From a virus: DNA of 31,257 nucleotides. Of the stretch, positions 4,324-30,743 are shown one piece after another. The notes beneath the pieces were generated by a model. The model made no database searches, was not told the origin of the DNA, and saw only the letters and a program-made list of their open reading frames with translations. The stretch spans positions 1 to 31,257 of IMG/VR virus record IMGVR_UViG_3300010334_000182. The stretch is one strand, 5' to 3'. Position 1 is the first letter of the stretch, and every line of letters starts with the position of its first letter. The translations under genes were made by a program, and so were the position numbers.

Positions 4324-4374
4324 TAGGGTTACTACGAGTACCATATTTTGGTAAAATGCTTAACTGGAGATGTT

Positions 4375-12845: not shown

Positions 12846-14462
12846 ATGAGTTTAGTCACACAACCCTGGTTAGAAGATACTAACAGTATAAGATGCTTAT
12901 TAGTCGAATTAAAAGTATTAGACTATGGGAGTACTTACGGCGGTACCAATGGAAACGGCTATGCAGGAACTGTTTACCTTGGTACTACAGGATATAACTT
13001 AGGTGATTCTACTATAAGTTTTTTGCCTTACTTAACAAGCGGCTTCCAAACTTCTCAAAATATGTCACTAGACGGCAGTTTAAGTTTAACTTTTGGCGAC
13101 TTAGAAGTTCAAAATCCAAATGGAGATTTTGACAGCTGGCTAGACAACACAAAATTCATTTGGGCAAATCAATCAGTAAAAGTTTATTTTGGCGATCCAC
13201 GATGGAGCTCAACCTCAATAGATGATGTACGTTTAAACTTTGAATTGATATTTGATGGTATTATACAGGAAATTGATAGCAAATCCAGAGAAACTGTAAA
13301 CTTAAAAATAGCAGATAAACTGCAACGATTGAATAGTCCATTATCAGAAGATAAAATTGGTACTACAGGCACATGGTCGGGCGTTCAGCCAAATAGCGAC
13401 ACCATTAAACCTTTAGTATTTGGTGAAGTATTTAATATGACACCAGAGCTAGTAGACCCTAGTACCTTGCAATATCAGTTTAATGCTACCACAACTGAGT
13501 TGGTTATTGAAATCAGAGACAACGGTGTGCCTATATACACAGATAGTTCTGTATTTAATGCAGCTATTAATTTAGGTACAAGGCCTACAGGCGCTACAAT
13601 TGATTTAACTACTGGCAAGTTTACATTGCCAACACCGCTTGCAGGTTCAGTAACCTGTAGCGTACAGGGTGTAAAAAACAGTATAAACTTAAGCTCAGGC
13701 GCTTTACAAACTGGTACATATAAAAACAATATTGCCAATTTGATTGCACTTATTGCTATGCATTATGGTAATGCTAATTTGCGATTATCAGTAGCAGATT
13801 TAGATTTAACAAATTTAGCAAATTTTGAAAATTCAAACCCACAACCCGTAGGTTACTTAGTAACAGACCGAACAAATGTGCTTGAAGTATGTCAAAGTTT
13901 AGCAAGTAGTGTGGGTGCACAAATTTACATGTCTCGTACAGGAAAACTGCAAATTCTACGATTAGCAGTGCCTAGTAGTGCCACAACAGAAATAACAGAC
14001 AATGACATTTTGCACCATAGCTTAAGCATAAGCACAAAAACTGATGTTGTTGCTGGCAGCAAAATAGCTTACAGTAAAAACTGGACTACGCAAACTGATC
14101 TATTAACAAATATACTGGCTCCACATAAAGAAATATTTGCCACAGATTGGTATACAGAAACTGCACTTGATTCTACAGTAAAAAGCACATATAAACTTTA
14201 TGCAGATCCACCGCAAAAAGAAACTTATCTATTACAACAGTCAGATGCACAAACAGAAGCAGCAAGACTTCGTGATTATTTTAAAACGCCGCGTATAGTA
14301 TATAAGTTTACTGGTATAAGTAAATTGTTGTTGTTAAACTTAGGAGATGCTGTACGTTTAACACACAATAGATTTGGTTTAACAACAGGTAAATTTGGAC
14401 AAATAGTCGGTTTAAATCAAAATTGGGTAGCAGGTACAGTTGACGTGGAGGTATTAATCTAA
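12846..14462 (+). CDS. Tail tip / baseplate hub-like protein
   Basis: A 538-residue protein directly downstream of the tape measure terminator and promoter. Residues 70-165 have the character of a tail hub domain (VKVYFGDPRW at 111-120, IFDGIIQEIDS at 135-145, IADKLQRLN at 155-163), residues 335-372 read TNVLEVCQSLASSVGA and RTGKLQIL, and the C-terminus ends with LGDAVRLTH followed by strands of a small beta domain. From memory this set recurs in phage tail proteins related to the T4 gp27/lambda L-type hub, which closes the tube at the tip and receives the tape measure C-terminus. The start is supported by AAGG ten bases upstream. The stop overlaps the next start (TAATG). Assignment to hub rather than another tip protein is inference. 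Confidence 0.65.
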   Translation: MSLVTQPWLEDTNSIRCLLVELKVLDYGSTYGGTNGNGYAGTVYLGTTGYNLGDSTISFLPYLTSGFQTSQNMSLDGSLSLTFGDLEVQNPNGDFDSWLDNTKFIWANQSVKVYFGDPRWSSTSIDDVRLNFELIFDGIIQEIDSKSRETVNLKIADKLQRLNSPLSEDKIGTTGTWSGVQPNSDTIKPLVFGEVFNMTPELVDPSTLQYQFNATTTELVIEIRDNGVPIYTDSSVFNAAINLGTRPTGATIDLTTGKFTLPTPLAGSVTCSVQGVKNSINLSSGALQTGTYKNNIANLIALIAMHYGNANLRLSVADLDLTNLANFENSNPQPVGYLVTDRTNVLEVCQSLASSVGAQIYMSRTGKLQILRLAVPSSATTEITDNDILHHSLSISTKTDVVAGSKIAYSKNWTTQTDLLTNILAPHKEIFATDWYTETALDSTVKSTYKLYADPPQKETYLLQQSDAQTEAARLRDYFKTPRIVYKFTGISKLLLLNLGDAVRLTHNRFGLTTGKFGQIVGLNQNWVAGTVDVEVLI

Positions 14463-17400
14463 TGGCAACATTAATAAACTCAAGAGATAAAGCCTTACAA
14501 ACTGCACGATATAGACGCGGTGCAACACAAGTAACACTAACAGCGTTAGAAGGTGCTTTTATAAAGCCTAAAAATGGTGCTGCCATAACTCCTAGTAGTA
14601 TAAAAATTACTGCAACAAAAAATAATGTATTTACTGATGCTGCAGTTTATAAATGGGAGTATGCACTAAGTACTAAGCCTGATACTTATACTACAGTAAC
14701 TGATGGTACAAATGCAATAACAACTCCTGAATTAGAAATAACTAGTTCTACAATGTTGTCGATTATAGCCTCAGCTAGTGAAATTTACTACAAATGTACA
14801 GTTAGTGAAAGTAAGCTGGATACTGCTAGCTCAATATTTAAAATAATTTATAGTAAGGAAAGTGACGATCCTATTACTATAAATATGACAAAAACTAATG
14901 TGTCAGTACAGTGTGATCAATATGGTTCACCGAGTAGCTATGCAGGTACAGGTACAACAATCACAGTAACTCGTGGCAGTACACTATTAAACTATAATAG
15001 TATTGGTACAGCTACGGCAAATAGTTTTACAGTTACTACTGCAGCAGATGAAAATCGTACACTTGGTGGAACTACACATAGTACAGCTAATAGCTATGTA
15101 TTAGATGACTTAACTGCGTTAGCAACAGATCAAAGCAGTACTATTTTTACTATTACTGTATATGATGGTAATATGATAGCCACAAACACGTTTTCAAGAA
15201 CCTTATCTTATACTAAAGTAAAAAATGGTTTAGTTGGTTCAGATGGTAGAAGATATTATTTACTATTAAATACACTTGTTTTAGCAAAAAGTAGTAGTAG
15301 TGCAGATATAAGTGGAACACATACACCTAGTAGTATAACTGCTACTGGCAAAAGAATAATTGGTTCTGGAGATCCTACCAATTATGGGTATGTTACAATT
15401 ACAGATAATTCTGGTACCGAAAGTGATCCAAGTCAGTATACAAAAACTTATAATATAGCAAACAGTTACACAGCAGCTTCTTATACAGTAAGACTTTATG
15501 ATACTGCTACTAAAACCAACTTATTAGACAGTCAAACTGTACCTGTTGTATATACAGGCACTAGTGGTACTAGTGGTACTAGTGCTATAAATTTAGTATT
15601 ATCAAATGATAACGTTAGTGTGCCTACAGCAAGCGATGGTAGTGGTGCTGTATATACTGGTACAGGCACAGATATTGTAGTTTATGAAGGTAGTACACAA
15701 TTAACTTATGATGCTAGTGCAACTCCTGCTCAAAGCACTTGGAAGATAGCTAGCGTAAATGCTACTAATATAACTGCAGGAACTTATGCTACAAAAATTC
15801 TTCAATTAAATGCTACTGCATTAACAGTATCTGCAGGTAATGCTACTCTTAGTTATGCTGTCCAAAGTTCATCTCCTTATAGGGTAGGTCAAACAGTTAC
15901 ACTAGCAGGATTTAGTCCTACACAAACTAACGGTTCATTTACCGTACTAACTTGCACAACAACTCAACTAACTTTTGCCCTAACTGGCTCATATACGGTA
16001 ACAACACTAGGTACAGTGTCAGGGTCTGTTAATACTACACAAACAACTACTGTACCTGGATCAATGACAGATGATACTGCAAGTATTACTTATAATATAT
16101 CTGGTGTGACAGCAGCTGCTACAACTTTTACAATTAGTAAAACTCAAAGCTTTAAAAAGCTAAAAGCAGGCAGCGTTGGTGTAGACGGAAAAAGAGCCAT
16201 TATATTAAATGCATATAAATGGGCAAATACTACGACAAGCGTGCCTGTTCAAGCTTTTACATATACTTGGGCTTCGGGAAAAATAGACCCTTATCCCGAA
16301 GGCTGGACTTCAAGTGCGGCTGCACCACCTGGTACTGGTTATACTCTTTATCAACTGAACTTAACTGTCAGCGATTCAGCTACTACAGCTACTACAAGTG
16401 CAAATTGGAGTGCTAGTACACTAAATATAATTGGTTATAGACAAGACGGCACTATAGGTGAACTTAGTGCCTACACTAAAACAGCTTACATTACCCTAAC
16501 CACAGCAACTCCTCCAGGAACTCCAACAGCTACCACAGGTGCTACCAGCTTGCCCGCTGCTGTTGGTACAGTAAGCTGGACAAGTGCAAGTCCTGACACT
16601 GTAGCAGATGGAAGTTATGTTTATATTAGTACTGGCATTTATGGTTCAACAAGCGATAAAGTTGTATGGGGAGCACCTTACTTAAGTTACTTTAAAGTAG
16701 GCAGTTTAAGTGCAATTAGTGCTAGTTTAGGTGTAGTAGGAGTATCTACCACAGGCAACATACATAGCGGTACAGGTGCAAATGACACAAAAACTTATGG
16801 TGGTAATAATGCAGGATTTTTCTTAGGATATGATGGTAGTGGTGCTGGTGCAGCATATAAAATGGATGTGGGCAGTTCAACAAGTTACTTACGTTTTGAC
16901 GGTTCAAAAGTAAGTGCCACAGGCATGAGCATTTATACTGCAGACAATCAAGATATTTTAACTTTAGCAGGTGGACAAGAGTGGACAACTAATGGTAATA
17001 TAACACTTTATAGTGCTGTAAGTTTGAAAAAAACTGGCAGTACTAATAGTTATGATGCTTGGGCCTATGGAAAACAATTTTATTCAAAAGGTGCGGCTGT
17101 AAGTTTTCAAGCAAAAGAAGCTGTAAATCGTCAATTTGAAGTAGGTTTAAAGGCTAGTACTACACCTGGCACAAATGCTACTATTGATTATGGTATACTA
17201 CTGAGCACTTCTGGGGCAGTATTCGCTTGTGTTGGTAGTATAGCTCAGGGTACTATAGCTGATAGTTATGCACTTACTGATCAATTTTTAGTTGCTTATG
17301 ATAATAAACAAATAACTTATTACGTTAATGGTGTACTAAAATATACATATACAACTGGTGTAGTTGCAGATAAAAGTTTTGTGCCAAAAATTTCTTTTTA

Positions 17401-17902
17401 TACACAACAAGCATACGCCACAGCAGTTAAATTTCAACCGTGGAGTGGAGTTGGTGCAGATGGTGCTACTGGACCAACAGGTCCGACTGGTGCTACTGGA
17501 CCAACGGGACCAACAGGGAGTCAAGGTAACACAGGGGATGCAGGTCCTACAGGCACCCGTGCAGCAGCTACTTGGCTTAGTGCAAGTAGCTATAGTAGCT
17601 GGCCTAATAGTGGAGCTGAAACTGCAGCAAACAGTTATTTTTTGACTAATTTTGGTGGAAAAATAATTGGTGATAGGGCTACGATATTTAATAGTAGTAC
17701 TGGTAAAGGAGAAACTAGAAGTTGGAATGGTACTTCTTGGATTCCTGTAAGTGCCTATATTGACGGTAATTTACTAGTAAGTGGTAGTATAACTGGAGAC
17801 GCTTTAGCTGGAAATATTGTAACTGTTGGTCAACGTATAGTATCCAGTGATGGATTATTTGTAATTGATTTAGCTAATAAAACTATAAGTATAAGTGTTT
17901 AA
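14462..17902 (+). CDS. Central tail fibre / tip attachment-like protein with collagen-like stretch
   Basis: A 1146-residue protein with GGAGG at 14447-14451 before ATG 14462, one base overlapping the hub stop. It is built of repeated beta domains. Two short hinge motifs of the form KxGxxGxDGxR (252-263 and 568-578) separate Ig-like segments, as in gpJ-type tip proteins. A GTSGTSGTS linker is at 366-374. A module with VGQTVTLAGF and NGSFTV lies at about 452-522. A lectin/LamG-like sandwich (about 845-995) contains a conserved FLVAYDNKQITYYVNGV strand pair. Eleven Gly-X-Y triplets (998-1030) follow, and the end (DGNLLVSGSITGDALAGN) resembles the C-terminal region of central tail fibres. It is likely exposed at the tip and may bind host surface glycans; the lectin-like call is from pattern only. 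It shares a reading frame with the next ORF, with only its TAA and two sense codons before that ATG. Confidence 0.7.
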   Translation: MATLINSRDKALQTARYRRGATQVTLTALEGAFIKPKNGAAITPSSIKITATKNNVFTDAAVYKWEYALSTKPDTYTTVTDGTNAITTPELEITSSTMLSIIASASEIYYKCTVSESKLDTASSIFKIIYSKESDDPITINMTKTNVSVQCDQYGSPSSYAGTGTTITVTRGSTLLNYNSIGTATANSFTVTTAADENRTLGGTTHSTANSYVLDDLTALATDQSSTIFTITVYDGNMIATNTFSRTLSYTKVKNGLVGSDGRRYYLLLNTLVLAKSSSSADISGTHTPSSITATGKRIIGSGDPTNYGYVTITDNSGTESDPSQYTKTYNIANSYTAASYTVRLYDTATKTNLLDSQTVPVVYTGTSGTSGTSAINLVLSNDNVSVPTASDGSGAVYTGTGTDIVVYEGSTQLTYDASATPAQSTWKIASVNATNITAGTYATKILQLNATALTVSAGNATLSYAVQSSSPYRVGQTVTLAGFSPTQTNGSFTVLTCTTTQLTFALTGSYTVTTLGTVSGSVNTTQTTTVPGSMTDDTASITYNISGVTAAATTFTISKTQSFKKLKAGSVGVDGKRAIILNAYKWANTTTSVPVQAFTYTWASGKIDPYPEGWTSSAAAPPGTGYTLYQLNLTVSDSATTATTSANWSASTLNIIGYRQDGTIGELSAYTKTAYITLTTATPPGTPTATTGATSLPAAVGTVSWTSASPDTVADGSYVYISTGIYGSTSDKVVWGAPYLSYFKVGSLSAISASLGVVGVSTTGNIHSGTGANDTKTYGGNNAGFFLGYDGSGAGAAYKMDVGSSTSYLRFDGSKVSATGMSIYTADNQDILTLAGGQEWTTNGNITLYSAVSLKKTGSTNSYDAWAYGKQFYSKGAAVSFQAKEAVNRQFEVGLKASTTPGTNATIDYGILLSTSGAVFACVGSIAQGTIADSYALTDQFLVAYDNKQITYYVNGVLKYTYTTGVVADKSFVPKISFYTQQAYATAVKFQPWSGVGADGATGPTGPTGATGPTGPTGSQGNTGDAGPTGTRAAATWLSASSYSSWPNSGAETAANSYFLTNFGGKIIGDRATIFNSSTGKGETRSWNGTSWIPVSAYIDGNLLVSGSITGDALAGNIVTVGQRIVSSDGLFVIDLANKTISISV
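17453..17557 (+). repeat. Collagen-like Gly-X-Y stretch in the central fibre
   Basis: Eleven triplets beginning GAD GAT GPT GPT, mostly GPT/GAT, within the 14462 gene. Such runs are known in phage fibres, where they form trimeric stalks; here it links the lectin-like sandwich to the C-terminal domain. Confidence 0.85.
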
Positions 17903-17908
17903 AATATT

Positions 17909-20900
17909 ATGTTGTTTCAAGATTTAACTAATAGCATTACTCCTCAAGCTGCATCAGAAACCAGTACTTTTCAGGCTACTGGTTATAGCTGGTATGGGAA
18001 CTACTATAATATATATATAGCTTTTGTTAGTGGCAGTAGGCCTGCTATAGGTACTACTATTACGGCAACTGGTACAGTAAACGGTGTTTACTATGGCTCA
18101 CTACTTATATCAGGTGACTGGACTAATAATGGTATATATTACTTAAAGGTATATGGTAAATTAAGTGTTGAACCAACTATAAATACCACATTAACTTGTA
18201 CATATACTTCAAATAAAACTTATAGTGAAGCAATTTATACAGGATTACCTAATTATAGTTATATTATTGGTTCTTATTATAATCCAGCAGGCAGGTATAG
18301 CTCACTTACCACTAATATTTGGGCTAGAGGTTCGGGAACTACCCCAACAGCTTATCCACAAAATTTAAATTTATATAGCCAGTATTCTAATTTTCAACTA
18401 AATAATGATTTAACTGGTAACTATATAGGTAATAGTTTATACGAACTTGATATTATATTTGACAGACCAAATAGATTTAGTACTAGAAGCTATTTAAAAT
18501 ATATAGAAAACGGAACTTCTATTGGAATATATAGAACATATAATGATCCTACTTCAAAACCTATTGGTTCATATTCTGTTCCATTAGCAAGTAAATATAC
18601 TTTAAGTGTAGTAGATAATATCACAAATGCTATAATTGTAGATGAAACAGCCCCACGTACTTTTTCAACCAGTAGCAGCGGGCAACTTACTATTAGTACT
18701 GATATATATGCTACTGCATCTTCTGGTACTATTAAAGGAACAACATTTAATGCAGGAGGAGTTGTATCAGGAAGCTTTGGTGTAGGTATGTTACTAGATG
18801 GTACAGGTGTTGTAACAGGTACATATATTACAGGAGGTAGTGCACCTAATTGGACTGTAAATATTAGTCAATCAATCTCATTAGGAATAAACATTTCAGG
18901 TGATTGGGTCCCCACTAATCCCACTAATATTTGGAATGGAAGTAATAGGAATGATTATATATTAAGAATATATTCTTACGATGATCCTTACAGCAGCCCT
19001 AAAAAAATTCTTAGATTAAGGGCGGAAGATAGGCTTTTTGCTAATGTACTTGGTTATCAGGTGCCTGCAAGACTTTGGATAAATAGAAATACATATACTT
19101 ACCCAGTTACACTAGATGGATCTTTAATATTAACAAACTCAACCTCAACAAATACTAATAGTTATGAAGATACAATTGTAACTTGTTTAGATACTCCTAA
19201 AATTACTGGAATTACTGCTGCTCTTAGTAGTAATGATAAATACTATTCACAATTAACTTATATGGGCTATAATGATCAAGATAGTGGTTTAAAATATACT
19301 ACTTCAAGTCTTAGTACTTACCCTATAAGTTGTTATGAAGGTATTATATTTGGTACTGGTAAAACATCTTTAACTGTACTTTTAACTATTTGGGGTACTA
19401 CTACTATCCCTTATCCTGGTATGGTAATGCAAGATATTGATAGTAGTTCTGTAAGTTCAGTATCAATTAAAACTGTATCCTATGACACGAAGACCAAACG
19501 TTATAGTTTTACTTTATCAAGTGCGTGGACAGGTGGTAATAGAGTTAAGTTTCTAAATAAAATGACTGGTCAATATAAAAAGTATACTAAAGATCCAGCA
19601 AATATTTTTCCAATTGGGTATTCAGATGGGATTCCTTATCTTGTAAGTAATTCATATTACTATAAACATGCTCTTGAAAACAGATTTTTAAGCCCAGGGT
19701 TTTTTACAATACTACCTTTATACTCGGTAAAAAAATTAGATGGAACATTAATAGCTACTTTTAGAGATACTACATTATTTACACAAATAGATTCGCCTAC
19801 AACTGCTCTTAGTAGAAATTATTATGCACGAGAAATAAGTACTACGACAAATTATAAATGGTGGACAGTTAGCAGTAGTTCAAGTTATACGGTAATACCA
19901 CCAACTAAGTCTGCTAGTATTTCAAATACTAAAATTAAAGAATTTTATTATACATATGGTCCTTGTCTAATAGAGTTTACTGCTGTAATTTTAAAAAGAG
20001 AAATAACATATGCCAAACAGGTTACTACTCCCAGTCCTTACAGTGATACATATTCAGAATCAGGAGTTGTAATTGGACCACCTACACCTGAATCTGATTA
20101 TCCTCCTTATTCCGATAATAAGGGATATACTGAAACTGAAAGTACTGAAATTATAAGAATTAAAGTACAAGAAACAGTAGTACCCATGATTACACCAACA
20201 GTAAATTTAATAAGACCTAGCAGTTTAATTGGATTTAATACAACTGATTCAACCTACAAAATTAATTTTAATGCTGCCCGTATAACCACTAAATATAAAG
20301 GTAGTAATAGTATACTAATAGAAAAAATTGAGACTAGTGGTAACACAATAACTATTACTAATCATGGTTTAAAAAATGGTCAACTTATTCGTTATGGTTC
20401 AAATGGTACAGTAGCCAAAGGTTTAAAAAATAATAACTATTATTATGTGGTTTATTATAGTGCTAATACGTTTGGGCTAACCACAGATTCTACCGTAATT
20501 GACATTACATCAACAGGTAGTGCAGGAGATCAATATATTTATTTAGATAGTGATAGATATATTTTAACCTCAGAGCTTAGCAAAATAAAAGATAATGCAA
20601 TATATTTTGATAAACCTCATAACTTATCAACAGGCGACAGAATTTTATATTTAGCACCAACAAATAGTGGTGTTTCCAGCTATATTATTAATGTAACACA
20701 TTATACTTATTATATTGCAGTTAGAGTAGATGATTATGCAATAAAACTATTAGATACTGAAAATAATCCTATTACAATAACTTTTATTGCTGAAACTCCA
20801 AAAATAACTATTGGTGTATCTAAAACTAGCAATAATAGTGTTTATTGGAATGGATCATATATTATAGATTCTACTAAAGATTTAGTAACAATTAATCTTA

Positions 20901-23614
20901 ATTGGAGTTATACTGAGTACAAAGATTATATATTTGATATTACTATCAACAGTTCAGTTTACGTAATTTATGAAATTACTAGCAACGGCAATTTTAGTAA
21001 AGATGATATTATAAAAACAACAATACTTGATCCTTATAATCTTACTAGGACTAATTATGGTTCAAGTTGGGGCACGGTTAGTGGCAGTATTTTTCCATAC
21101 ACCTCAACAAAATTAACTATAAAAGTAAGCTCAGCATCACAAGGTTATTATGGTAATTATACTGGAACTTATAATATTTATGTTAAATTTACTAAATTAT
21201 CAGGTGATTATACTGGTATTTTTAATTTTGCTAAATTACCTGATACAATACAAGAAGTAACTGATAAAAATGCAGGTTATATAGGTATAGGTACAGAACC
21301 TGCAGTGCAAGCTGCACCTTCAAAAACTTTATCTAATTTAACTGGAACTAACCTAAATGTAAAATTATATGCAGATAAAACAATAGCAACACAACTTAGT
21401 AGTATAAATATTCCTATTATAAGTAATTTAGTTGATACTAACGCTGTTATTTTCCAAAATAACGCAGCTTTTTACAGCTTAACTGAAGTAGGTTTTTTAC
21501 CAACTGGAGCAGACATAAAACATTATGGAATACCTCAATCTAACAACAACTGGAATTATCCTCAGTATAATACAACTGATACAAAATTAAATAATAAAAG
21601 TACACATAGCACTACTAATGGTGATATAACAATTAATACCAAAACAAGTATATTCGGTATTAGTAGTAGCCCTGCTAATATAATTCTTGCCACAGCTCAT
21701 GGATTATCAACAGGTGCACCTGTGCGCGTTGCTATCCCAGGTCTAACTGGATTTAGTACTACAAACTATAATTTTATTACTAAAGTGAAAAGAAATAGTC
21801 AAGGTACTGGCAGTTTGTTAGGTACAGCTAGTGAGCATGGCTATGTTACTGGTGATATAGTTATGTATCAAAAAGGTTATGATACTTCAACTGCAACTTA
21901 TTTAAATTTATTAGATGTATTAATACCTGGAAAAAAATATTACGTTATTGTTGTAGACACAACTTGGTTTAAGTTAAGTAATAGTCCAGAAGAAGCCGCA
22001 GCAGGTAAAGGTATTACTTTTAATAGTTTTGGTAAATTTGGAACACAAATAGTAGATGGTGTTGATACTAAAACTGCGACCATTTACTTTAAATATGCAC
22101 AAACTGAGGCTGCTGATGCAGTTAATTATTACTATGGCACAGTAGAGAATCCAGTCAGTGCTATTTACAACCAAACAACATATGACAAAACATTAGTCCA
22201 GGGTTTTGATTCTAGCACTTTTAGGTTTAAGTACCCAGGACCTGATAATTATAGTCAACAAGTTTATACTACTTCAACAGGTAACACTTTAGCTACATCA
22301 ACTTTTGATAATATAATAATAGGTTATTTGGATAAATTAGATAGTTTTCCAAACGGTATAAATTGCTACGATACTTACTATGTAATAGTAGTTGATAAAG
22401 ACCAAATTAGGCTTGCTAAAAGTTATGAAGATGCTGTGGCAGTTACTCCAAATTATATACCTATAGAACCAGCTGCTACAGGTACAACAGCTTATATTTA
22501 CACAGGTGTTATAGCGCCAAAAGCACTTACTAGCACTACTCCAGTTATAAAAGATGCACTATTACTAGGAACGCAAAATCCTGTTGCTTTATCAATTTGT
22601 TGGAGTTATACACTAGGTACCGCTAATACATCTGCTAATAACATTGATGGTTTTATAGTTTATGTTAATACTGTTGGTGTTGCAGGTAGCGATCCAGTTA
22701 ATGATAGTAGGTATATTGTGCCTTATGATGACTACTATACATCTGGTAAATATAATATAGTTATATATAATGTACGTAATACGGATTCTCGTATTTATGT
22801 TGCTGTTGCGGCTTATAGATATAGAAATCACTACGACTACAGACATGATGTTTTTTTTGGTACAGATGCTCAAGAGTTACAAATAAGTACATTATTAAAA
22901 GACGATATATATGCCCCTACAAGTACTTCCGATGCTAGTGTATTAACACTGGCTGATGATACTACATATACTACAATTAAAAGATTTTTTATACCAAAAA
23001 CTAAGTTAGCTTATAATGGAAGTCAAGGTTATACTACTCCTCAAAGTACTTTGACTATTGATGGAAATACGGGAACTTTAACTTTAATAAAAAATTCAGT
23101 AAATGTAACTGATCAATTAAAATCAAAATATACAACTCAAACTACTGCAAGTTATTATATTCCTTATCTTTCTACAAGCGGAACTTATCAATATATAGCT
23201 TCAAAGCAAACTATAAATTATAGTAGTAACACTGTATTACAAACTTATATATATAAAACTGATTATAAAAAGCCTTTATTTATAAAACTTATACCAAGTA
23301 ATTTTACAAGTATATCTGGTATTACTTTAAATACTGGTATTACTGCTCCTGTAGTTATTAATAACGTATCTCTTGATACACCTACTATTGCATCAGGCGG
23401 AGGTAATATTAGTATAACACAAAAAGTAATTAGTATAGGACCAACAATTGTACAAAGTATAACTAATAATATAACTAATAGTTTAAGACTATTAATACCT
23501 GTAATAGATAGTAGTACTAATGCAATATCTGTTGCTGAAATTTATTATCAAGATAAAGACACTGAATTATCTAACCTTAATTTTACTACTGTTATACAAG
23601 TATTAGGAACATAA
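17909..23614 (+). CDS. Giant 1901-residue tail-associated protein of unknown role
   Basis: Not recognised as a named family. ATG 17909 lies six bases after the preceding stop and has no Shine-Dalgarno sequence; it is in the same frame as the upstream fibre gene, so re-initiation or stop read-through is possible. The protein is unusually rich in Tyr, Ser, Thr, Asn and Ile, with little predicted helix. Segments seen: a module SSGTIKGTT...DGTG...NISQS (271-325); a Pro/Tyr linker (705-740); HGL/HNL-type beta modules at 813-880 (NHGLKNGQ, YYYVVYY), 895-960 (PHNLSTGD), 1255-1300 (AHGLSTGA), 1307-1375 (EHGYVTGD, KKYYVIVVD) and about 1470-1520 (YYVIVVDKDQIRLA); and a fibronectin-III-like stretch (1558-1650). 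No enzyme motif was seen. Position in the tip/fibre unit suggests a large extended virion surface protein, perhaps a fibre or baseplate component. Confidence 0.6.
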   Translation: MLFQDLTNSITPQAASETSTFQATGYSWYGNYYNIYIAFVSGSRPAIGTTITATGTVNGVYYGSLLISGDWTNNGIYYLKVYGKLSVEPTINTTLTCTYTSNKTYSEAIYTGLPNYSYIIGSYYNPAGRYSSLTTNIWARGSGTTPTAYPQNLNLYSQYSNFQLNNDLTGNYIGNSLYELDIIFDRPNRFSTRSYLKYIENGTSIGIYRTYNDPTSKPIGSYSVPLASKYTLSVVDNITNAIIVDETAPRTFSTSSSGQLTISTDIYATASSGTIKGTTFNAGGVVSGSFGVGMLLDGTGVVTGTYITGGSAPNWTVNISQSISLGINISGDWVPTNPTNIWNGSNRNDYILRIYSYDDPYSSPKKILRLRAEDRLFANVLGYQVPARLWINRNTYTYPVTLDGSLILTNSTSTNTNSYEDTIVTCLDTPKITGITAALSSNDKYYSQLTYMGYNDQDSGLKYTTSSLSTYPISCYEGIIFGTGKTSLTVLLTIWGTTTIPYPGMVMQDIDSSSVSSVSIKTVSYDTKTKRYSFTLSSAWTGGNRVKFLNKMTGQYKKYTKDPANIFPIGYSDGIPYLVSNSYYYKHALENRFLSPGFFTILPLYSVKKLDGTLIATFRDTTLFTQIDSPTTALSRNYYAREISTTTNYKWWTVSSSSSYTVIPPTKSASISNTKIKEFYYTYGPCLIEFTAVILKREITYAKQVTTPSPYSDTYSESGVVIGPPTPESDYPPYSDNKGYTETESTEIIRIKVQETVVPMITPTVNLIRPSSLIGFNTTDSTYKINFNAARITTKYKGSNSILIEKIETSGNTITITNHGLKNGQLIRYGSNGTVAKGLKNNNYYYVVYYSANTFGLTTDSTVIDITSTGSAGDQYIYLDSDRYILTSELSKIKDNAIYFDKPHNLSTGDRILYLAPTNSGVSSYIINVTHYTYYIAVRVDDYAIKLLDTENNPITITFIAETPKITIGVSKTSNNSVYWNGSYIIDSTKDLVTINLNWSYTEYKDYIFDITINSSVYVIYEITSNGNFSKDDIIKTTILDPYNLTRTNYGSSWGTVSGSIFPYTSTKLTIKVSSASQGYYGNYTGTYNIYVKFTKLSGDYTGIFNFAKLPDTIQEVTDKNAGYIGIGTEPAVQAAPSKTLSNLTGTNLNVKLYADKTIATQLSSINIPIISNLVDTNAVIFQNNAAFYSLTEVGFLPTGADIKHYGIPQSNNNWNYPQYNTTDTKLNNKSTHSTTNGDITINTKTSIFGISSSPANIILATAHGLSTGAPVRVAIPGLTGFSTTNYNFITKVKRNSQGTGSLLGTASEHGYVTGDIVMYQKGYDTSTATYLNLLDVLIPGKKYYVIVVDTTWFKLSNSPEEAAAGKGITFNSFGKFGTQIVDGVDTKTATIYFKYAQTEAADAVNYYYGTVENPVSAIYNQTTYDKTLVQGFDSSTFRFKYPGPDNYSQQVYTTSTGNTLATSTFDNIIIGYLDKLDSFPNGINCYDTYYVIVVDKDQIRLAKSYEDAVAVTPNYIPIEPAATGTTAYIYTGVIAPKALTSTTPVIKDALLLGTQNPVALSICWSYTLGTANTSANNIDGFIVYVNTVGVAGSDPVNDSRYIVPYDDYYTSGKYNIVIYNVRNTDSRIYVAVAAYRYRNHYDYRHDVFFGTDAQELQISTLLKDDIYAPTSTSDASVLTLADDTTYTTIKRFFIPKTKLAYNGSQGYTTPQSTLTIDGNTGTLTLIKNSVNVTDQLKSKYTTQTTASYYIPYLSTSGTYQYIASKQTINYSSNTVLQTYIYKTDYKKPLFIKLIPSNFTSISGITLNTGITAPVVINNVSLDTPTIASGGGNISITQKVISIGPTIVQSITNNITNSLRLLIPVIDSSTNAISVAEIYYQDKDTELSNLNFTTVIQVLGT

Positions 23615-23615
23615 T

Positions 23616-24392
23616 ATGGCTGCTACCGAAAGAATAAAAATAACACCAGACTATATAATTGCAAAAAATGCGGTTGGCACAGTAACTTATAGTGCGGGTA
23701 CTCCACCCGCTGATGGTTCAATAAACTTTCCAGCGTACTTAAGAAGTAATAGTACTAGTAGTATAAATACAGACTATGATATATACTATAATCAAGTTGC
23801 ACCACTACCTTATCCAGAGCTTAATACATGGAAAACAATTAGTACAATAAGTGGTAGTATATTTAGTTTAATTGCAGCACCTATAAATAGTACTACAACA
23901 GTAGTTAATACTAGTTTAGTTGAGCCTGGAACTTACGTTATTGTACCAACAGTTTGGTATATAGAAAGTCCAGGTACTACTTCTGATTTAAATACAAGTA
24001 GTAGATTTTCTACAACCAATATTCAAGATCAATTTAAATATGAAATTAAACTTAATGGTATTGTAATTGATAGTTTTTATGTAAGCCGTTATGAAACAGA
24101 TACCAAAATTCTTTGGATAGGACCAACTGGTCCTGCTGATAATTATGGCCTAGATAGTGGCGGGTTTTACATACCAGGACCTTATTCTGTAAAAATTAAT
24201 TATGGTATGACAAATCCAGACAGCGTAAGCTTAACAAATCCTGCCAGTTATATTAGTGATGCATACTCTACAAAAACACTTAGTATAACACCAGTTGCTA
24301 ATGGTCCAACAATTGCAGACAGTTGGACCCGTGGAACTGTAAAAATTTTATATTATTCACGTGGTTATTTAGGCATGAGGTATACAAAATGA
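23616..24392 (+). CDS. Uncharacterised tail-unit protein (258 residues)
   Basis: Starts at ATG 23616 one base after the previous stop, with AGGA at 23605-23608 as ribosome binding site. The protein is beta-rich and polar, with no signal peptide, membrane segment or cysteine pattern. Visible segments are MAATERIKITPDYIIAKN at the N-terminus, a WYIESPGTTSD loop in the middle and YEIKLNGIVIDSFYVSRYE followed by WIGPTGPADNYG. It overlaps the next gene by ATGA. Its role is unknown; cotranscription with hub and fibre genes suggests a small virion tip component. Confidence 0.6.
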   Translation: MAATERIKITPDYIIAKNAVGTVTYSAGTPPADGSINFPAYLRSNSTSSINTDYDIYYNQVAPLPYPELNTWKTISTISGSIFSLIAAPINSTTTVVNTSLVEPGTYVIVPTVWYIESPGTTSDLNTSSRFSTTNIQDQFKYEIKLNGIVIDSFYVSRYETDTKILWIGPTGPADNYGLDSGGFYIPGPYSVKINYGMTNPDSVSLTNPASYISDAYSTKTLSITPVANGPTIADSWTRGTVKILYYSRGYLGMRYTK

Positions 24393-24910
24393 TTGATATA
24401 TCATCATCAGGTATTAAAATAGTGGCAGAAGGTCAACAGATTCCTGAACTTACTGGTACAACACAATTAACTACTTATTTAACAACAGCTAGTGGAAATT
24501 GTACATTTACTGCAAATTCTGGTAGCTATCGTCAAATTACAAATTTAAGTTATAGTACGGTTACTATAGCTGGAAAAAGTTATAATACTTATCAGTCAAA
24601 TTTTACCCATTTTTATGTAATCTACATAACACCTACTAATTTGCCTACAAATAGCTCAATTAGTGTGTTGTTAAATAAAAAGTTTCAACTGTGTATGGGA
24701 CTGCCTTATTTAGTAGAAAAAGATGCTAATGGATATAAATTTACAAAATACGATATTTTAACTGCCAGAATAGTCCCAGGTAGTCCAAGTTATGTTGAAT
24801 TTCAAGCATATGATGCTTTAAATTTACATAGTTTAAACCCAGTTGCGCAAAGTTCAATTAGCTTTAGTTGGACTGCACATACTTATTATTATAAAAATTA
24901 TACTTATTAA
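24389..24910 (+). CDS. Uncharacterised tail-unit protein (173 residues)
   Basis: The open frame reaches back to 24323, but the start is placed at ATG 24389 in the ATGA overlap with the preceding gene, because the upstream extension lies wholly within that gene and has no supporting start signal. The product MIDISSSGIKIVAEGQ... is polar and beta-rich. It has a central FYVIYITPTNLP strand pair and KKFQLCMGLPYLVEKDANG, and it ends in a Tyr-rich tail. There is no recognisable domain. Composition resembles its two upstream neighbours, which supports a shared structural assembly. Confidence 0.6.
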   Translation: MIDISSSGIKIVAEGQQIPELTGTTQLTTYLTTASGNCTFTANSGSYRQITNLSYSTVTIAGKSYNTYQSNFTHFYVIYITPTNLPTNSSISVLLNKKFQLCMGLPYLVEKDANGYKFTKYDILTARIVPGSPSYVEFQAYDALNLHSLNPVAQSSISFSWTAHTYYYKNYTY

Positions 24911-24914
24911 AATT

Positions 24915-25133
24915 ATGGATTTATCAAATAAACAAGTCACAATTAAATCATTAATAAATAACTCAATACCTGAACCCGAAACTGTAGTAACTGTGATTAT
25001 TTACGAAATTGTATCAACAGGTATTAAAAAAAATGTGGGTGAGTATGATATTACTTTAAAAAGTATATTATACTATGATCTGCAAGACCCTCAACTGATG
25101 CAAGCTGTACTACTGCAACTTGCTGAAATCTAG
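24915..25133 (+). CDS. Small uncharacterised tail-unit protein (72 residues)
   Basis: Start chosen at ATG 24915, four bases after the previous stop; the longer open frame (from 24843) would lie inside the previous gene. No clear Shine-Dalgarno sequence, so coupling to the upstream gene is likely. The protein MDLSNKQVTIKSLINNS... has one beta-rich half (TVVTVIIYEIVST) and an amphipathic C-terminal helix (DPQLMQAVLLQLAEI). It ends with the only TAG stop seen in the window. Function is unknown. Confidence 0.55.
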   Translation: MDLSNKQVTIKSLINNSIPEPETVVTVIIYEIVSTGIKKNVGEYDITLKSILYYDLQDPQLMQAVLLQLAEI

Positions 25134-25141
25134 GAACAAAA

Positions 25142-26209
25142 ATGGCGGCAAATAATTTAAAAGTAATTTATGATAATGTAATAGATTATGGTACTACCAC
25201 AGTTTCAGCAGATAGTGTTGCAGGCACATCTTATGCAGCAGCAAATCTTAAAAAAGACGCAAAAAGCCAAACTTGGCGCAGTAATAATTCAAAAACTGCT
25301 ACCTTAACAGTTGGCTTTGGCTCAGGCACGTTTAGTGGATATATCACAGGTACAACACTTGTGGTTACAAGTGCACCTACCATCACACTAGCACCAAATC
25401 AAGTTATTACAGGTGGCAGTATTGCAGCAGGTACTTATATTACAAGTTTTGGCACAGGTACTGGTGGTACGGGTAATTATGTAGTCAATACCAGTCAAAC
25501 TGTGGGCAGCAGTCAATCACCTATTACTGTAACTGCTGCAGCTACAAAAGTTTTAAGTGGTGTGCTTTTAGCATTTACCAACTTAACTAGTACAGCTACA
25601 ATTAAAACTACTGCCATAAATGTAATTGCAGGTGTAAACCCCAGCGCATTGGGTGATGTACTGGCAAGACCGTGGACAGACACAGCTTGGGACAGTACAT
25701 TTTTGCCAGCCAACAGCAACAGCTACAGTTATGGTGGAGGAAATTATGCCAGAACTTGGTTTAGCAGCGACGTAACTTGTACTGGACTTACTATCGCTAT
25801 CACAGATACAGCTAATACCAACAGCTATCTAGAAGCAAGTAGACTGATAGTAGGCAAGTCTTGGAGTCCAAAATACAATACAGAATTTGGCATAGAAGTT
25901 GCCGTAAAAGATTTAAGTAGTCAATCAAGAACTGAAAGCGGTGATTTAATTACCACCCGCGGTGTACGTTACAAAACTTTAAATTTCAACTTAAATTGGT
26001 TAACATACACAGATCGCACAACTTTTGTAAATTTACTAAAAACTAGTGGTTTAAGCAGGCCATTGGCAGTTAGTTTGTTTCCAAATAATAGTGATGACTG
26101 GGATGCTGAAGGTTTATACCAAATATACGGAAAATTAACAGATACAGCAGCTGTTACACACCCAATGTTTACTGTGTACACAAGTTCAGTAAGCATAGAA
26201 GAAATATAA
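25142..26209 (+). CDS. Minor / distal tail protein with inserted beta module
   Basis: A 355-residue protein with AGGA (25132-25135) overlapping the previous stop and ATG 25142. Residues 45-58 and 138-157 look like adjacent strands of one sandwich (SKTATLTVGF and KVLSGVLLAFTNLTSTATI). They are separated by a 75-residue Gly/Thr module (about 60-133: SGYITGTTLVVTS, GTGTGGTGNYVVNTSQTV). The C-terminal half contains RLIVGKSWSPKYN, SGDLITTRGVRYKTL, a Trp/Asp region and LYQIYGKLT. From memory this half matches a minor tail protein found near the tips of several siphoviruses. It may occupy a distal-tail position, binding the hub or fibres. It is the last gene before a terminator. Confidence 0.55.
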   Translation: MAANNLKVIYDNVIDYGTTTVSADSVAGTSYAAANLKKDAKSQTWRSNNSKTATLTVGFGSGTFSGYITGTTLVVTSAPTITLAPNQVITGGSIAAGTYITSFGTGTGGTGNYVVNTSQTVGSSQSPITVTAAATKVLSGVLLAFTNLTSTATIKTTAINVIAGVNPSALGDVLARPWTDTAWDSTFLPANSNSYSYGGGNYARTWFSSDVTCTGLTIAITDTANTNSYLEASRLIVGKSWSPKYNTEFGIEVAVKDLSSQSRTESGDLITTRGVRYKTLNFNLNWLTYTDRTTFVNLLKTSGLSRPLAVSLFPNNSDDWDAEGLYQIYGKLTDTAAVTHPMFTVYTSSVSIEEI

Positions 26210-26335: not shown

Positions 26336-26677
26336 ATGGAAATAACAGACCCATCAAATATATCCCAGTGGCTTACGGCAGCTTTTTTGGCTGTAGTTGG
26401 ACTAGCTATGGGATTGCAAGTAGTAGTTAAAAACTGGAAAGCAAATAGTACAGAATCAGCTTTATTAAAGATGATGCATGATGAATTAGAACGTATGAGT
26501 GCGCAAAACTTAATACTAAGCCAGGAAATTGGCAAATTGCAAGCCGAACTAGTAAACTTAAGCAATCAACTTAGTGAACTAACTAGTGAAAATACTAAAC
26601 TGCGTGTTGAAGTCAGCAACTTAAATACTGAAATTACCAGACTACATGGTATTATAAAAACAAAGGCGGTAGTATGA
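26336..26677 (+). CDS. Small single-pass membrane protein with long coiled coil
   Basis: A 113-residue protein with a strong ribosome binding site (AAGGAG, 26322-26327). Residues 12-31 (WLTAAFLAVVGLAMGLQVVV) form one hydrophobic segment. It is followed by basic KNWK and then a heptad-rich helix (about 42-108) with many Leu/Ile at a/d positions (LSQEIGKLQAELVNLSNQLS). No signal peptidase or lipobox motif. Charge distribution (acidic N-terminus, basic side after the segment) predicts N-terminus out and coiled coil in the cytoplasm, opposite to an inner-membrane spanin. Possible roles are a lysis-related factor, a membrane anchor or an assembly protein; none is proven. It is first in the unit behind its own promoter and overlaps the next gene by ATGA. 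Confidence 0.7.
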   Translation: MEITDPSNISQWLTAAFLAVVGLAMGLQVVVKNWKANSTESALLKMMHDELERMSAQNLILSQEIGKLQAELVNLSNQLSELTSENTKLRVEVSNLNTEITRLHGIIKTKAVV

Positions 26678-27261
26678 CTGATGCAGTAAAAATAAATTAT
26701 AAAATTATGCAAGGCAATACTTTTTCAGAAACACTACGCTGGGAAAGCGGTGAAAAAGTATATAAGCCTATTACTGCAATAACACAAAGTGCTCCACTAA
26801 CTCTTACTAGTACAGCACACGGCATACCACCACAATGGCGTATTAAAATTACAAACGTGGTAGGCATGACCGACATTAACAACAGTGATATATATAGACT
26901 GGGCGAACCTACTACAGCTAATGTAATAACTATTAATGACATTAACAGTGTAGGTTACCGTGCTTATACAAGCGGTGGTATACTAGAATACAATAAACCT
27001 GTTGATATGACAGGTTACACTGCAAAAATGCAAATTAGACCAAATGTAGATAGTAGTACATTAATTTATGAAATGACTACTAGCAATGGTGGTATTACAA
27101 TTGATAATACAACTAAAAAGATAACTTTACTTATTCCTGCAACTGTAACTAGTACATTTAATTTTACAACTGCAGTTTATGCACTTGAAATTTATGCAGG
27201 TACCACAAGCTTTGTGTTAATTTATGGCAGCATGGGATTAACCAAAGAGGTTGTAAAATGA
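26674..27261 (+). CDS. Fibre-associated tail protein with inserted AHG module
   Basis: A 195-residue protein with AAAGG at 26662-26666 and ATG in the ATGA overlap. Residues 1-32 (GNTFSETLRWESG) and 108-195 (PVDMTGYTAKMQIRP, NGGITIDNTTKKITLLIP, YALEIYAG) make up a domain that I recall as a widespread small phage protein encoded just before tail fibres. Between them, residues about 34-106 form a separate module (STAHGIPPQWRIKITNV ... GYRAYTSGGILEY), of a type often seen in phage and bacterial surface proteins. Its function is not established; adjacency to the fibre suggests a fibre-attachment or baseplate role. Both ends overlap neighbours by ATGA, which indicates tight coupling. Confidence 0.6.
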   Translation: MTDAVKINYKIMQGNTFSETLRWESGEKVYKPITAITQSAPLTLTSTAHGIPPQWRIKITNVVGMTDINNSDIYRLGEPTTANVITINDINSVGYRAYTSGGILEYNKPVDMTGYTAKMQIRPNVDSSTLIYEMTTSNGGITIDNTTKKITLLIPATVTSTFNFTTAVYALEIYAGTTSFVLIYGSMGLTKEVVK

Positions 27262-30200
27262 CAGAAATAGTAAAATTTGTTAATACTATAATTGTTGAAA
27301 ATGCCGTAACCAGCGAAACTATTGTTAGTGGCGTGCAGGGACCACCAGGTGCAACAGGCCCGCAAGGGCCTGCTGGCACTGCTGGCGTTGCAGGGGCAGC
27401 AGGGCCACAAGGCACTCCAGGTGCTGTATTAGTAAATTTAGCTAATAGTGTTGCAATACCTACTGGATTAACTAGCGGTCAAGCCTTGTATAATTATGGA
27501 AATGGAACCGCTAGTAATTATGGTGATAGACTTTTTATAGGCATACCAAGTGGTAATATTGTTAATAGTGTATTAGTTGGCGGCAAATATTACACAGATT
27601 TGTTAGAAACAGCTACTAGTTCTGCCGATTCTAACGTACTTGTAAAACGAGATAGTAACGGTAAATTAATAGGTGATATACTAGGTAATAGCGCAACTGC
27701 TACAAAATTGTCCACAGCAAGAAGCATAAGCGTAATTGGGGATGTAGTTGCTAATGCTGTTAATTTTGATGGTACTAGTAACATACAGTTAAATGCTGCA
27801 CTTGCAACACAAACTGGTTTAACTACTGGTACTTACGGTAGTACTACACTGATTCCTGTACTAACTGTTAACAATAAAGGTGTTATTACAGCCATTAGTA
27901 CTCAAACTGTAGCATCTAATAATTTATTACTAACTGCTGATAATAGCACTTTTGGTTCAGTAGTCACTGGTAGCAGATTACAAATATTAGGTGGTACAGG
28001 TATTACTACAAGTGCAAGTAGTAATACTGTAACTATAAATCTTAATACTAATATTGCCACAACTAGCGGTACTCAAACATTTACTAATAAAACTATTAGC
28101 ACTAATAGTACTTGGGCAGGTAATACTATCAGTCAAAGCCGTGGTGGTACTGGAAGTACAACTGGTAGTATTATTACAGACAGTAATTTAACATTTAGTA
28201 GTGGTAGTACACTTTACTTAAGTGCACAAACAATAGATGTTGGTGGCAGTGTTTTAACAAATCTAACAACACCGCAACAAGATAGTGATGCAGTTACCAA
28301 AGCTTATGCGGATGCACTTAAGCAAGGTTTAGACATAAAAGATTCCGTTAAAGTTGCTACTACAACTAATATTAATCTATTTGGACAACAATCGATAGAT
28401 GGCATAAGTGTACTTGCGGGCCAACGTGTATTAGTAAAAAATCAAACTAATAGTGAAGAAAACGGCATATGGAACGTAAGTTATCAAGATTGGTATAGAA
28501 GTAGCGATGCTGATACTAGTGATAAAGTAACGGCAGGATTATTTACATTTGTAGAACAAGGCACGCAAAATGCTGGAAATGGTTTTGTTTTAACCACAAG
28601 TGGCTCAATTATATTAGACACAACTGCTTTAAATTTTTCACAATTTAGTAGTGGTGGCACAATAATAGCTGGCAGTGGTTTAACTAAAACTGGCAATACA
28701 ATATCTGCCAACTTTAGTGGCAGTTATAATGACTTAAGTAATAAACCTACTAATTTAGCTACTGAAACTTATGTTACTACGGCATTAAGCGGTAAAGTAA
28801 ACACTTCTGCACTTGCAGCTGTAGCTACCAGCGGCAGCTACACAGATTTAACAAATAGATTTCTTGGCTATGACAATGAAATACACGTTAGTCAAGTAGA
28901 CGGAAACGATACTACTGGTAATGGTGACTTGTTAAATCCAGTTGCTACGATTACCAAAGCAATGACTTTAGTAAGTGCACAAAGAAGAAAAGTAATTGTT
29001 CACTCTGGCGGTTATACTGAAGACTTCACAATAAATTTATCTTATGTAACAGTAACTACTGAAGCACAAAAAGGTGACGATGTTGTAATTACTGGAACTG
29101 TAACTGCAAACAAAGGCTGTACTATTTCAGGTTTAAAAATAACAAACCTGACGATTACAGCAGCTACAGGAACAGGAAGTGTAAACATACTTGGTTGTGA
29201 TATTACTGGTACACTTACAAAAAGCAGTGCTGCCGACTATACTCTTATTCGTTTTTGCGATATTGGCACTACAAACATTACTGGTAGCGGTGGTTTAGTT
29301 GCCATATTTGGGGGTAATCCTAATTTCATTACAATCAATAATGCTGCAGCAAGGGTAATTGTTAAAAACGCTGTTACTATTTCTCCAGTTTTAACTGCAG
29401 GAAACGCAAACTTTGTAGACAGCATAGTACTTGCTTCTACTGCTACAAGTAACGCTATTACTTCTGCTGCTGGAACTATTGTTACCTTAGCTAATAGTCA
29501 ATTTATTGTACCAACATTTAATAATGTTGCCAGAGTTTCGTTAAGTGGTTTCTATTCAATTTTCAACTGTGTATATGACAAGCCAAACTCAACTTTGGTG
29601 GCATTGTCGGCAAGTGGCGGGTCAACTAATTCTGTTGATTATTTTCAGTACATTAATGCCGATAGATTGGTACTGGCAACAGGTGGTCAGATTACATTTC
29701 CAGACGGCAGTGTTCAAAATACAGCAAGTGCAAATTATACTGCTACTAATAATGCTGGAATTTCAATCAGTAATGACTATAAACTTGCAACTGTTTATAA
29801 TTCAAATATTAGTAATACAGTTTCAAGCGTAGTTGTTGGCGGTGCGCCAGCAGCGGCAGCTAGTGAATGGAAAAGCAAAACTATTGTACAAGTTTTAGAT
29901 ACAATACTTTTTCCAGATTTAAATCCTGACTATGTAATACCCACATTGACAGTAACAGAATACGCTGTTGGTGTGGCTGAAGTTGGCTCTACTATAACCA
30001 GAACACTTGTTGCAACTGGAACTAAAAATGATGCAGGATTATTTCAAAGTTTTGTATTTAGACGTAATGGTGTTTCGGTTAAAACAACTTATGATCCAAC
30101 AGGTAGTAGTAGTGGTGTTGCTAGCTTAGCTAATCAATTTGGTTACACAAACCCTAATAATCCAAATACCAAATATACGGATTCATATACAGAAAATTAT

Positions 30201-30743
30201 GTCGCCACTACACCAAGTATTATTAATTGGAGTGTTAGTGGTAACTATGCTGCAGGTTTACCAAAATATACAAATAAAGGTGCATTAGACACCAGAACCA
30301 GTCAATCATTATTAACCAATGCACCTCAACTTGGGGGAACCTTGATAGCCAACTCATCTTCACTCTCAATTATGTACCCTTATTTTTGGGGCACAGAAAG
30401 TTCTAGTATAACAGCTGACGGCATTGTAACAAAAATTGCAAATAATGCTGCAACTAAGGTTTTACAGGATAGTAGCGGTAGTATTCAAATTACTTTTAAT
30501 GCAAATGTTAATTACATTTGGTTTGCCATACCCGTTAATGGTGTTAACGGAACAATTGCACAAAAAATTAACTGGGCACAAGATAATAATGCTATAAATA
30601 AGGGCACAATTAGTAACGATAGCGCTTTTATTGGTATACCAACTTTAAAAAATGTTTCTAGTAGTTTGTGGTTAACTGTGCCGTATTATATATACATCTC
30701 CAAAGGTGCAACAAGCACTGAAGGATCTTTTACTTTTTCATAA
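27258..30743 (+). CDS. Long mosaic tail fibre
   Basis: A 1161-residue protein; AAAGAGG at 27244-27250 precedes the ATG within an ATGA overlap. Domain order: short N-terminal attachment region (1-24); eleven Gly-X-Y triplets (25-57); fibre repeats (DILGNSATATKLSTARSI at about 140-158, LTVNNKGVITAI at 202-213, RGGTGSTTGS at 295-304); a module at about 348-470 (KQGLDIKDSVKVATTTNI, VLVKNQTNSEENGIW, FTFVEQGT); SGSYNDLSNKP and SGSYTDLTNRF motifs; a right-handed beta-helix-like region (about 545-770) with a VDGNDTTGNG opening; a GGQITFPDGSVQ motif (809-820); and a C-terminal domain (about 885-1161) ending GSFTFS. All are known phage fibre building blocks. It probably binds the host receptor, with specificity in the C-terminal part. 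Confidence 0.85.
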   Translation: MTEIVKFVNTIIVENAVTSETIVSGVQGPPGATGPQGPAGTAGVAGAAGPQGTPGAVLVNLANSVAIPTGLTSGQALYNYGNGTASNYGDRLFIGIPSGNIVNSVLVGGKYYTDLLETATSSADSNVLVKRDSNGKLIGDILGNSATATKLSTARSISVIGDVVANAVNFDGTSNIQLNAALATQTGLTTGTYGSTTLIPVLTVNNKGVITAISTQTVASNNLLLTADNSTFGSVVTGSRLQILGGTGITTSASSNTVTINLNTNIATTSGTQTFTNKTISTNSTWAGNTISQSRGGTGSTTGSIITDSNLTFSSGSTLYLSAQTIDVGGSVLTNLTTPQQDSDAVTKAYADALKQGLDIKDSVKVATTTNINLFGQQSIDGISVLAGQRVLVKNQTNSEENGIWNVSYQDWYRSSDADTSDKVTAGLFTFVEQGTQNAGNGFVLTTSGSIILDTTALNFSQFSSGGTIIAGSGLTKTGNTISANFSGSYNDLSNKPTNLATETYVTTALSGKVNTSALAAVATSGSYTDLTNRFLGYDNEIHVSQVDGNDTTGNGDLLNPVATITKAMTLVSAQRRKVIVHSGGYTEDFTINLSYVTVTTEAQKGDDVVITGTVTANKGCTISGLKITNLTITAATGTGSVNILGCDITGTLTKSSAADYTLIRFCDIGTTNITGSGGLVAIFGGNPNFITINNAAARVIVKNAVTISPVLTAGNANFVDSIVLASTATSNAITSAAGTIVTLANSQFIVPTFNNVARVSLSGFYSIFNCVYDKPNSTLVALSASGGSTNSVDYFQYINADRLVLATGGQITFPDGSVQNTASANYTATNNAGISISNDYKLATVYNSNISNTVSSVVVGGAPAAAASEWKSKTIVQVLDTILFPDLNPDYVIPTLTVTEYAVGVAEVGSTITRTLVATGTKNDAGLFQSFVFRRNGVSVKTTYDPTGSSSGVASLANQFGYTNPNNPNTKYTDSYTENYVATTPSIINWSVSGNYAAGLPKYTNKGALDTRTSQSLLTNAPQLGGTLIANSSSLSIMYPYFWGTESSSITADGIVTKIANNAATKVLQDSSGSIQITFNANVNYIWFAIPVNGVNGTIAQKINWAQDNNAINKGTISNDSAFIGIPTLKNVSSSLWLTVPYYIYISKGATSTEGSFTFS
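27330..27428 (+). repeat. Collagen-like Gly-X-Y stretch in the tail fibre
   Basis: Eleven triplets starting GVQ GPP GAT GPQ near the N-terminus of the 27258 gene. It is the second collagen-like stalk in the window, with different triplets from the one in the central fibre. Confidence 0.85.

Follow-up and report, generated by a model that had tools for sequence, protein, structure and literature searches.

A giant tyrosine-rich protein with HGL modules in an exchangeable tail-tip slot is a probable adhesin of a virus with T5-like tail genes

Introduction

Judged from sequence, HGL modules are a widespread and known type of phage module that occurs in cyanophage gp7, in tail fibers, and in a pelagiphage tail tubular protein B. 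In the cyanomyophage Synechococcus phage S-SM2, gp7, a giant tail protein of the baseplate wedge subunit family PHROG 2885, carries these modules at irregular spacing, and the tail fibers of Prochlorococcus phages MED4-213 and P-HM2 contain them in a protein of about 3,700 amino acids (aa). The putative tail tubular protein B of Pelagibacter phage EXVC032P Baldr has two modules, one of which exceeds the cutoff of the Pfam family E1_FCCH (PF16190; 29.5 bits) with a score of 49 bits, as does a module of Actinomycetia phage DSL-LC01 (31.4 bits) that matches the same profile. Because structural proteins of wedges and tail tubes also have such modules, the occurrence of the modules is no proof of sugar binding. 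A weak profile likeness also exists to the beta-barrel of endosialidases (PF12195; PDB entries 4hiz and 1v0e), which in the K1F endosialidase is described as containing one of three sites that bind polysialic acid and as a hotspot of host discrimination (PMC12632334). Within the literature collection searched, no publication was found that deals with FCCH-type modules in phage tails, nor any on the domain DUF7359, which is discussed below.

Here we describe a virus in which modules of this type are part of a giant protein that is probably a tail-tip adhesin. The module type itself is already known from annotated phage proteins; what is new is its occurrence in a giant probable adhesin within an exchangeable tip slot, possibly with one module nested in another. 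Outside the modules, no relationship was seen between the giant protein and gp7, and the phage described here has a T5-like major tail protein rather than a T4-like baseplate. No relationship beyond the modules was seen to the MED4-213 and P-HM2 fibers either, and the Baldr protein differs in that it is annotated as a tail tube protein and belongs to another phage type. No catalytic domain was found in the giant protein. The comparison ties together, by sequence, modules that have been annotated differently (as cyanophage wedges, tail fibers, and tail tube proteins), with weaker ties to endosialidase and to E1 enzymes.

Results and discussion

The giant protein and its tail gene neighborhood

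The window, meaning the whole stretch of DNA that was analyzed, is the entire virus record IMGVR_UViG_3300010334_000182 (31,257 bases; G+C content of 35.7%); neither an Rfam scan nor a tRNA scan gave a hit in it. The hub, tip, slot, and D-gene features given below are all encoded on the plus strand. The giant protein (P0001; 1,901 aa) is encoded at positions 17909 to 23614 by an open reading frame (ORF) that is real and uninterrupted, as the sequence-only reading had it, and the claim that it exceeds all of its neighbors except the tape measure was likewise borne out, the tape measure protein (2,794 aa; 4348 to 12732) being the only longer protein in the window. Upstream lie a candidate tail hub gene (12846 to 14462; 538 aa; phrog_8917), for which one of eight relatives gave a weak TipJ-related match, and the candidate gene for the central fiber of the tail tip (14462 to 17902; 1,146 aa), which includes a collagen-like stretch. 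Downstream, after three small genes, a conserved gene that we call D (25142 to 26209; 355 aa; phrog_8610) forms the far border of the slot.

The major tail protein (1395 to 3383) matches many T5-like phages (902 records), with an identity of about 32 to 35% over about half its length among the matches listed. A collagen-containing fiber of 1,161 aa is encoded at 27258 to 30743.

The composition of the giant protein, which had been singled out as unusual, is indeed so, with 13.6% Thr, 10.2% Ser, 9.4% Ile, 8.6% Tyr, and 7.5% Asn. The window and related loci, with overlapping loci counted separately, contain 364 complete ORFs on the forward strand that encode 500 aa or more; in Tyr content the giant protein ranks first among them, and the next ranks belong exclusively to its own homologs. 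Two of its small neighbors in the slot have similarly high Tyr contents (8.5 and 9.2%).

Direct searches with the whole protein against phages, viral contigs, the PDB, and NCBIfam gave no match, and comparison with Pfam, NCBIfam, and PHROGs assigned no family, with no Pfam model reaching its cutoff. A Pfam match to sCache_3_2 (E value of 0.01) was under the cutoff and was judged to be due to chance. Residues 1 to 800 were without a match, and a profile of this part gave nothing convincing in the PDB. The description of the protein as one of no known family therefore holds for the whole protein but not for its HGL modules, which are of a known type. AlphaFold2 models, built on alignments of only two and three sequences, had pLDDT values of 27.9 and 31.6, too low to show a fold.

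Homologs of the giant protein are encoded on two other contigs, IMGVR 3300027734_000056 (loci L002, L028, and L072; here the L002 contig) and IMGVR 3300046321_000130 (loci L058 and L074; the L058 contig). The L002 homolog (15298 to 20565) is 43 to 46% identical to the giant protein, and the L058 homolog (15137 to 19159) is 27% identical over the alignment. The L002 contig also has a counterpart of the collagen-containing fiber, which is 1,489 aa long and rearranged in the middle.

HGL modules and their arrangement

A module profile was built from other phages. Searching phages with the L002 homolog found S-SM2 gp7 (E value of 1e-4) and, weakly, MED4-213 (0.07), and a module of the latter used as the query retrieved 49 phage records. 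The final profile comprised 45 modules from 11 phage proteins, 2 of which had been found through the L002 homolog and the others through the MED4-213 module; the window protein and the L002 homolog were excluded. The giant protein matched this profile in five pieces with 85.7 bits, corresponding to an E value of 6.5e-27 in a set of 84 proteins longer than 150 aa from the window and loci L002 to L010. The L002 and L058 homologs scored 60.3 and 149.4 bits, respectively, and the runner-up among the 84 proteins after the giant protein and the L002 homolog had an E value of 0.21. Among 1,000 shuffled versions of the giant protein, of which 997 were reported, the best score was 7.4 bits, and the reversed sequence scored 0.0.

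The five pieces are a module at residues 808 to 860 (20330 to 20488; 40.7 bits), a second module at residues 902 to 956 (20612 to 20776; 22.9 bits), the front half of a module at residues 1252 to 1292 (21662 to 21784; 8.4 bits; profile positions 4 to 46), a whole module at residues 1306 to 1366 (21824 to 22006; 39.5 bits), and the back half of a module at residues 1488 to 1511 (22370 to 22441; 15.0 bits; profile positions 40 to 63). The sequence-only reading had counted at least five HGL modules. Five pieces do stand out from chance, but the protein contains only four H[GN][LY] motifs; these lie at residues 819, 904, 1264, and 1310 rather than at about 813, 895, 1255, and 1307, and an exact GD is present in just two of them. 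The site that had been placed near residue 1470 has no HGL, although the back half-module is present, with YYVIVVD at residue 1490. The YYVxVVD string that was said to follow some of the modules occurs at two places, residues 1344 and 1490. Internal repeat detection, which had been proposed as a check, came back empty in a self-comparison of the protein, and DNA repeats were short and weak, which argues that the modules are old and are not recent duplications.

Related modules in L018 and L021 pass the E1_FCCH cutoff; the giant protein itself gave no match to this family in Pfam at an E value of 1 or in a search of its own genome. When 17 aligned modules were compared at E values up to 1, 7 matched the endosialidase beta-barrel family PF12195 and 3 matched E1_FCCH. 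The best PF12195 match had an E value of 7.7e-4, the member shown reached 18.8 bits against the curated cutoff of 35 bits, and the whole giant protein did not match PF12195. In the PDB, the module alignment found the phage tail protein gp15 (E value of 0.0033), endosialidase 4hiz (0.0054), Mtd (0.06), and E1 enzymes (0.9 to 1.8). These sequence links to the endosialidase barrel and to the E1 FCCH domain are individually weak and mutually consistent. The L058 homolog matched the baseplate wedge family PHROG 2885 with an E value of 6e-19 and a tail fiber family with 1e-9, whereas PHROG 2885 gave no match when compared with the giant protein directly. The Baseplate_wedge family (PF23786) gave no match to the giant protein either, which is a weak test in that S-SM2 gp7 itself reaches only 20.3 bits. 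After the D-gene region, the product of a 195-aa gene (26674 to 27261) shows a weak E1_FCCH match at residues 45 to 105 (18.3 to 19.3 bits, below the cutoff), which suggests that the phage may encode another protein with such a barrel.

The third and fifth pieces of the giant protein are the front and back halves of a module and flank one whole module. The layout of the L002 homolog is identical, and the L058 homolog has two whole modules between the halves. This arrangement suggests that one HGL module was split through the insertion of another, and because the three proteins are homologous, it represents one event seen three times and not three events. It is possible, if somewhat doubtful, that the giant protein grows by nesting, such that an HGL barrel split by a whole HGL barrel (by two in L058) would give a branched, matryoshka-like protein rather than a tandem chain, and that exchange moves the tip cassette as one unit, along with the domain of the central fiber on which it docks.

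Beyond the modules, a fibronectin III (Fn3)-like or DUF7359-like region spans positions 22541 to 22873. The likeness to Fn3 was judged by eye, and DUF7359 (PF24058; cutoff of 27.5 bits) was found in the L058 homolog at residues 1079 to 1179 with 51.2 bits, which passes the cutoff, and in the window at 22568 to 22678 with 19.3 bits, which does not. The Fn3-like and HGL regions were unrelated by profile comparison. The C-terminal region of the giant protein (residues 1785 to 1901; 23261 to 23611) corresponds to a separate gene in both L002 (112 aa) and L058 (101 aa). A frameshift as the cause of the split in L002 is disfavored because L058 is split identically, and a fusion in the window or a fission in the others is likelier.

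A cassette inherited with the giant gene

Related loci were found with the hub gene as the query (9 loci), with a hub alignment (52 loci), and with a D-gene alignment (the best 80 of 132). Over 133 records, in which overlapping loci are counted separately and the D-gene loci are the best 80 of 132, the module profile detected the giant protein in three contigs, namely, the window and the L002 and L058 contigs, and weakly matched two other proteins (243 and 195 aa) among the records listed. Conserved pieces of the giant protein searched against viral contigs found only the L002 contig, and no relative turned up in one search of genome contigs.

In all three contigs, the giant gene is followed by genes encoding proteins of about 250, 170, and 72 aa. 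In the window, these are a 258-aa protein (23616 to 24392), for which L028 and L058 encode homologs of 249 and 246 aa in the same position, a 173-aa protein (24389 to 24910), whose gene overlaps the previous stop codon and whose homologs have 173 and 160 aa, and a 72-aa protein (24915 to 25133), whose homolog in L058 also has 72 aa. Synteny in two other contigs thus upholds the placement of the giant gene in a tip unit that runs from the central fiber through the giant gene to small unknown genes; the three small neighbors are present as described, but for two of the listed ORFs a later start is most likely, at the ATG codons at 24389 and 24915. Profiles of the 258- and 173-aa proteins gave nothing convincing in the PDB. 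Before the giant gene, the L002 and L058 contigs have an NlpC/P60-like gene (177 and 174 aa, respectively), the L058 copy of which matched NLPC_P60 with an E value of 0.0013, below the cutoff; this gene is absent from the cassette of the window.

The last ~113 residues of the tip protein (17558 to 17899) occur at full length only in the three contigs with the giant protein, where they score 182 to 199 bits; other proteins reach no more than 59.5 bits, in different stretches, a contrast that is partly built in because the profile was made from those three contigs.

Exchange and divergence at the tip slot

Hub, tip, and D genes were all present in 109 of the 133 records (D-gene loci being the best 80 of 132), and the 24 records that were cut or incomplete were dropped; clustering at 90% tip identity reduced the 109 to 61 clusters. 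Among the matches listed, 13 of the 61 clusters encode a protein of 500 aa or more between the tip and D genes, and the other 48 have no large protein there, which argues that a large slot protein is dispensable for this tail type. A domain scan of slot contents found LamG (L007 and L008), Gly_rich_2 (L003), Calx-beta (L043 and L048), and PKD (L036); the slot protein of L100 matches PHROG tail fibers, and clusters L046, L067, and L147 lay outside the domain scan. The LamG, Calx-beta, PKD, and Gly-rich proteins occupy the same gene position as the giant protein, and no sequence relationship to it was found.

The comparison of proteins with the L002 contig, the closest relative, covered the window from its third gene onward. 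Upstream of the slot, identity was 98.6 and 99.1% for the chaperones, 72.6% for the tape measure protein, 89.6% for the hub, and 64 to 69% for the tip. Identity was 43.0% for the giant protein (31.3% for residues 1 to 258), the lowest value among the genes compared, and then 46.1, 73.4, and 83.3% for the three genes that follow, 93.8% for the D gene, and 100, 97.4, and 74 to 80% farther downstream. Divergence is not unique to the giant gene, since the tape measure (73%) and tip proteins also differ. Within the giant protein, the fourth and fifth module pieces and the Fn3-like region have 50 to 60 identical positions per 100 residues, compared with 18 to 40 in residues 1 to 400.

These results bear on the earlier suggestion that the giant protein is a baseplate or side-fiber platform. 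Its location in the tip unit stands, and a structural platform that surrounds the hub and carries the side fibers, with the modules as spacers like those of cyanomyophage wedges, would account for a gene that adjoins the hub and tip genes and for modules that match wedge proteins (S-SM2 gp7 through the L002 homolog and PHROG 2885 through the L058 homolog). Such a platform is nevertheless unlikely. A slot that lacks a large protein in 48 of the 61 clusters, and has unrelated replacements in others, is a poor fit for an essential part, the giant protein is more diverged than the hub, tip, and D-gene products, and the match to gp7 does not extend beyond the modules. An accessory adhesin fits better than a conserved platform with both the exchange at the slot and the position of the giant protein as the most diverged of the genes compared.

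Proposed role of the giant protein

The giant gene lies at an exchangeable position among tip genes and has diverged more than its flanks, as expected for a tail-tip adhesin. The phage has tail genes resembling those of T5-like siphophages, and we propose that the giant protein is probably its cassette-borne tail-tip adhesin. The adhesin cassette would sit between the central tip fiber and the conserved 355-aa D gene, and the C-terminal domain of the tip fiber, which appears to travel with the cassette, would dock the complex. The giant protein and the coinherited 258- and 173-aa proteins would present surfaces rich in Tyr, Ser, and Asn, and the giant protein would turn its diverged upper part and its modules toward the host. 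Its lower half carries small HGL modules of a predicted beta-barrel type, one apparently nested, followed by the Fn3/DUF7359-like region and then by the C-terminal piece. The modules may serve as spacers or as sugar-binding units that make the first contact with glycans of the host surface, and a swap of the cassette would be expected to change the host range. The sequences themselves show how the modules are related, that the cassette exists, and that it is exchanged and has diverged. We infer that the giant protein is present in the virion and exposed there; its fold, docking, glycan binding, and influence on host range are predicted in the same way.

If the modules instead held a substrate, as the barrels of endosialidase do, the giant protein could be a depolymerase-like tailspike enzyme acting on a host surface polysaccharide. 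We consider this improbable; the faint likeness to the endosialidase barrel seen in 7 of the 17 modules and with 4hiz, and the NlpC/P60-like gene in the L002 and L058 cassettes, would agree with an enzyme, but no catalytic domain was found in any library searched, residues 1 to 800 have no match, and the window's cassette does not include the NlpC/P60-like gene. That the giant protein is a virion decoration or a superfluous moron gene product with no role in adsorption is very improbable, for although 48 of the 61 clusters have no large slot protein, its position among tip genes, the specific tip C terminus inherited with it, and the fusion of a separate protein point to a working tip complex.

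As a probable tip adhesin, a giant protein that was an unknown becomes testable, and the exchange slot, defined by hub, tip, slot, and D gene, can be read in any phage of the group. Slot content is then a candidate predictor of host range.

Other rearrangements in the slot

A related contig, L040, has a sulfotransferase-like gene (17111 to 17947; Sulfotransfer_3 with 34.2 bits, over the cutoff) in its tip slot, next to the gene for a protein with a very weak match to the GP38 adhesin. Separately, a 312-aa protein of L007 (18393 to 19331) matches both ends of the 1,758-aa Calx-beta protein of L048 (14372 to 19648), a pattern that would result if a small tip protein had gained a large Calx-beta array by insertion. 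The C terminus of the LamG protein of L007 (15403 to 18396) corresponds to a stand-alone 96-aa gene in L048 (14100 to 14390), which is another case of fusion or fission in the same slot.
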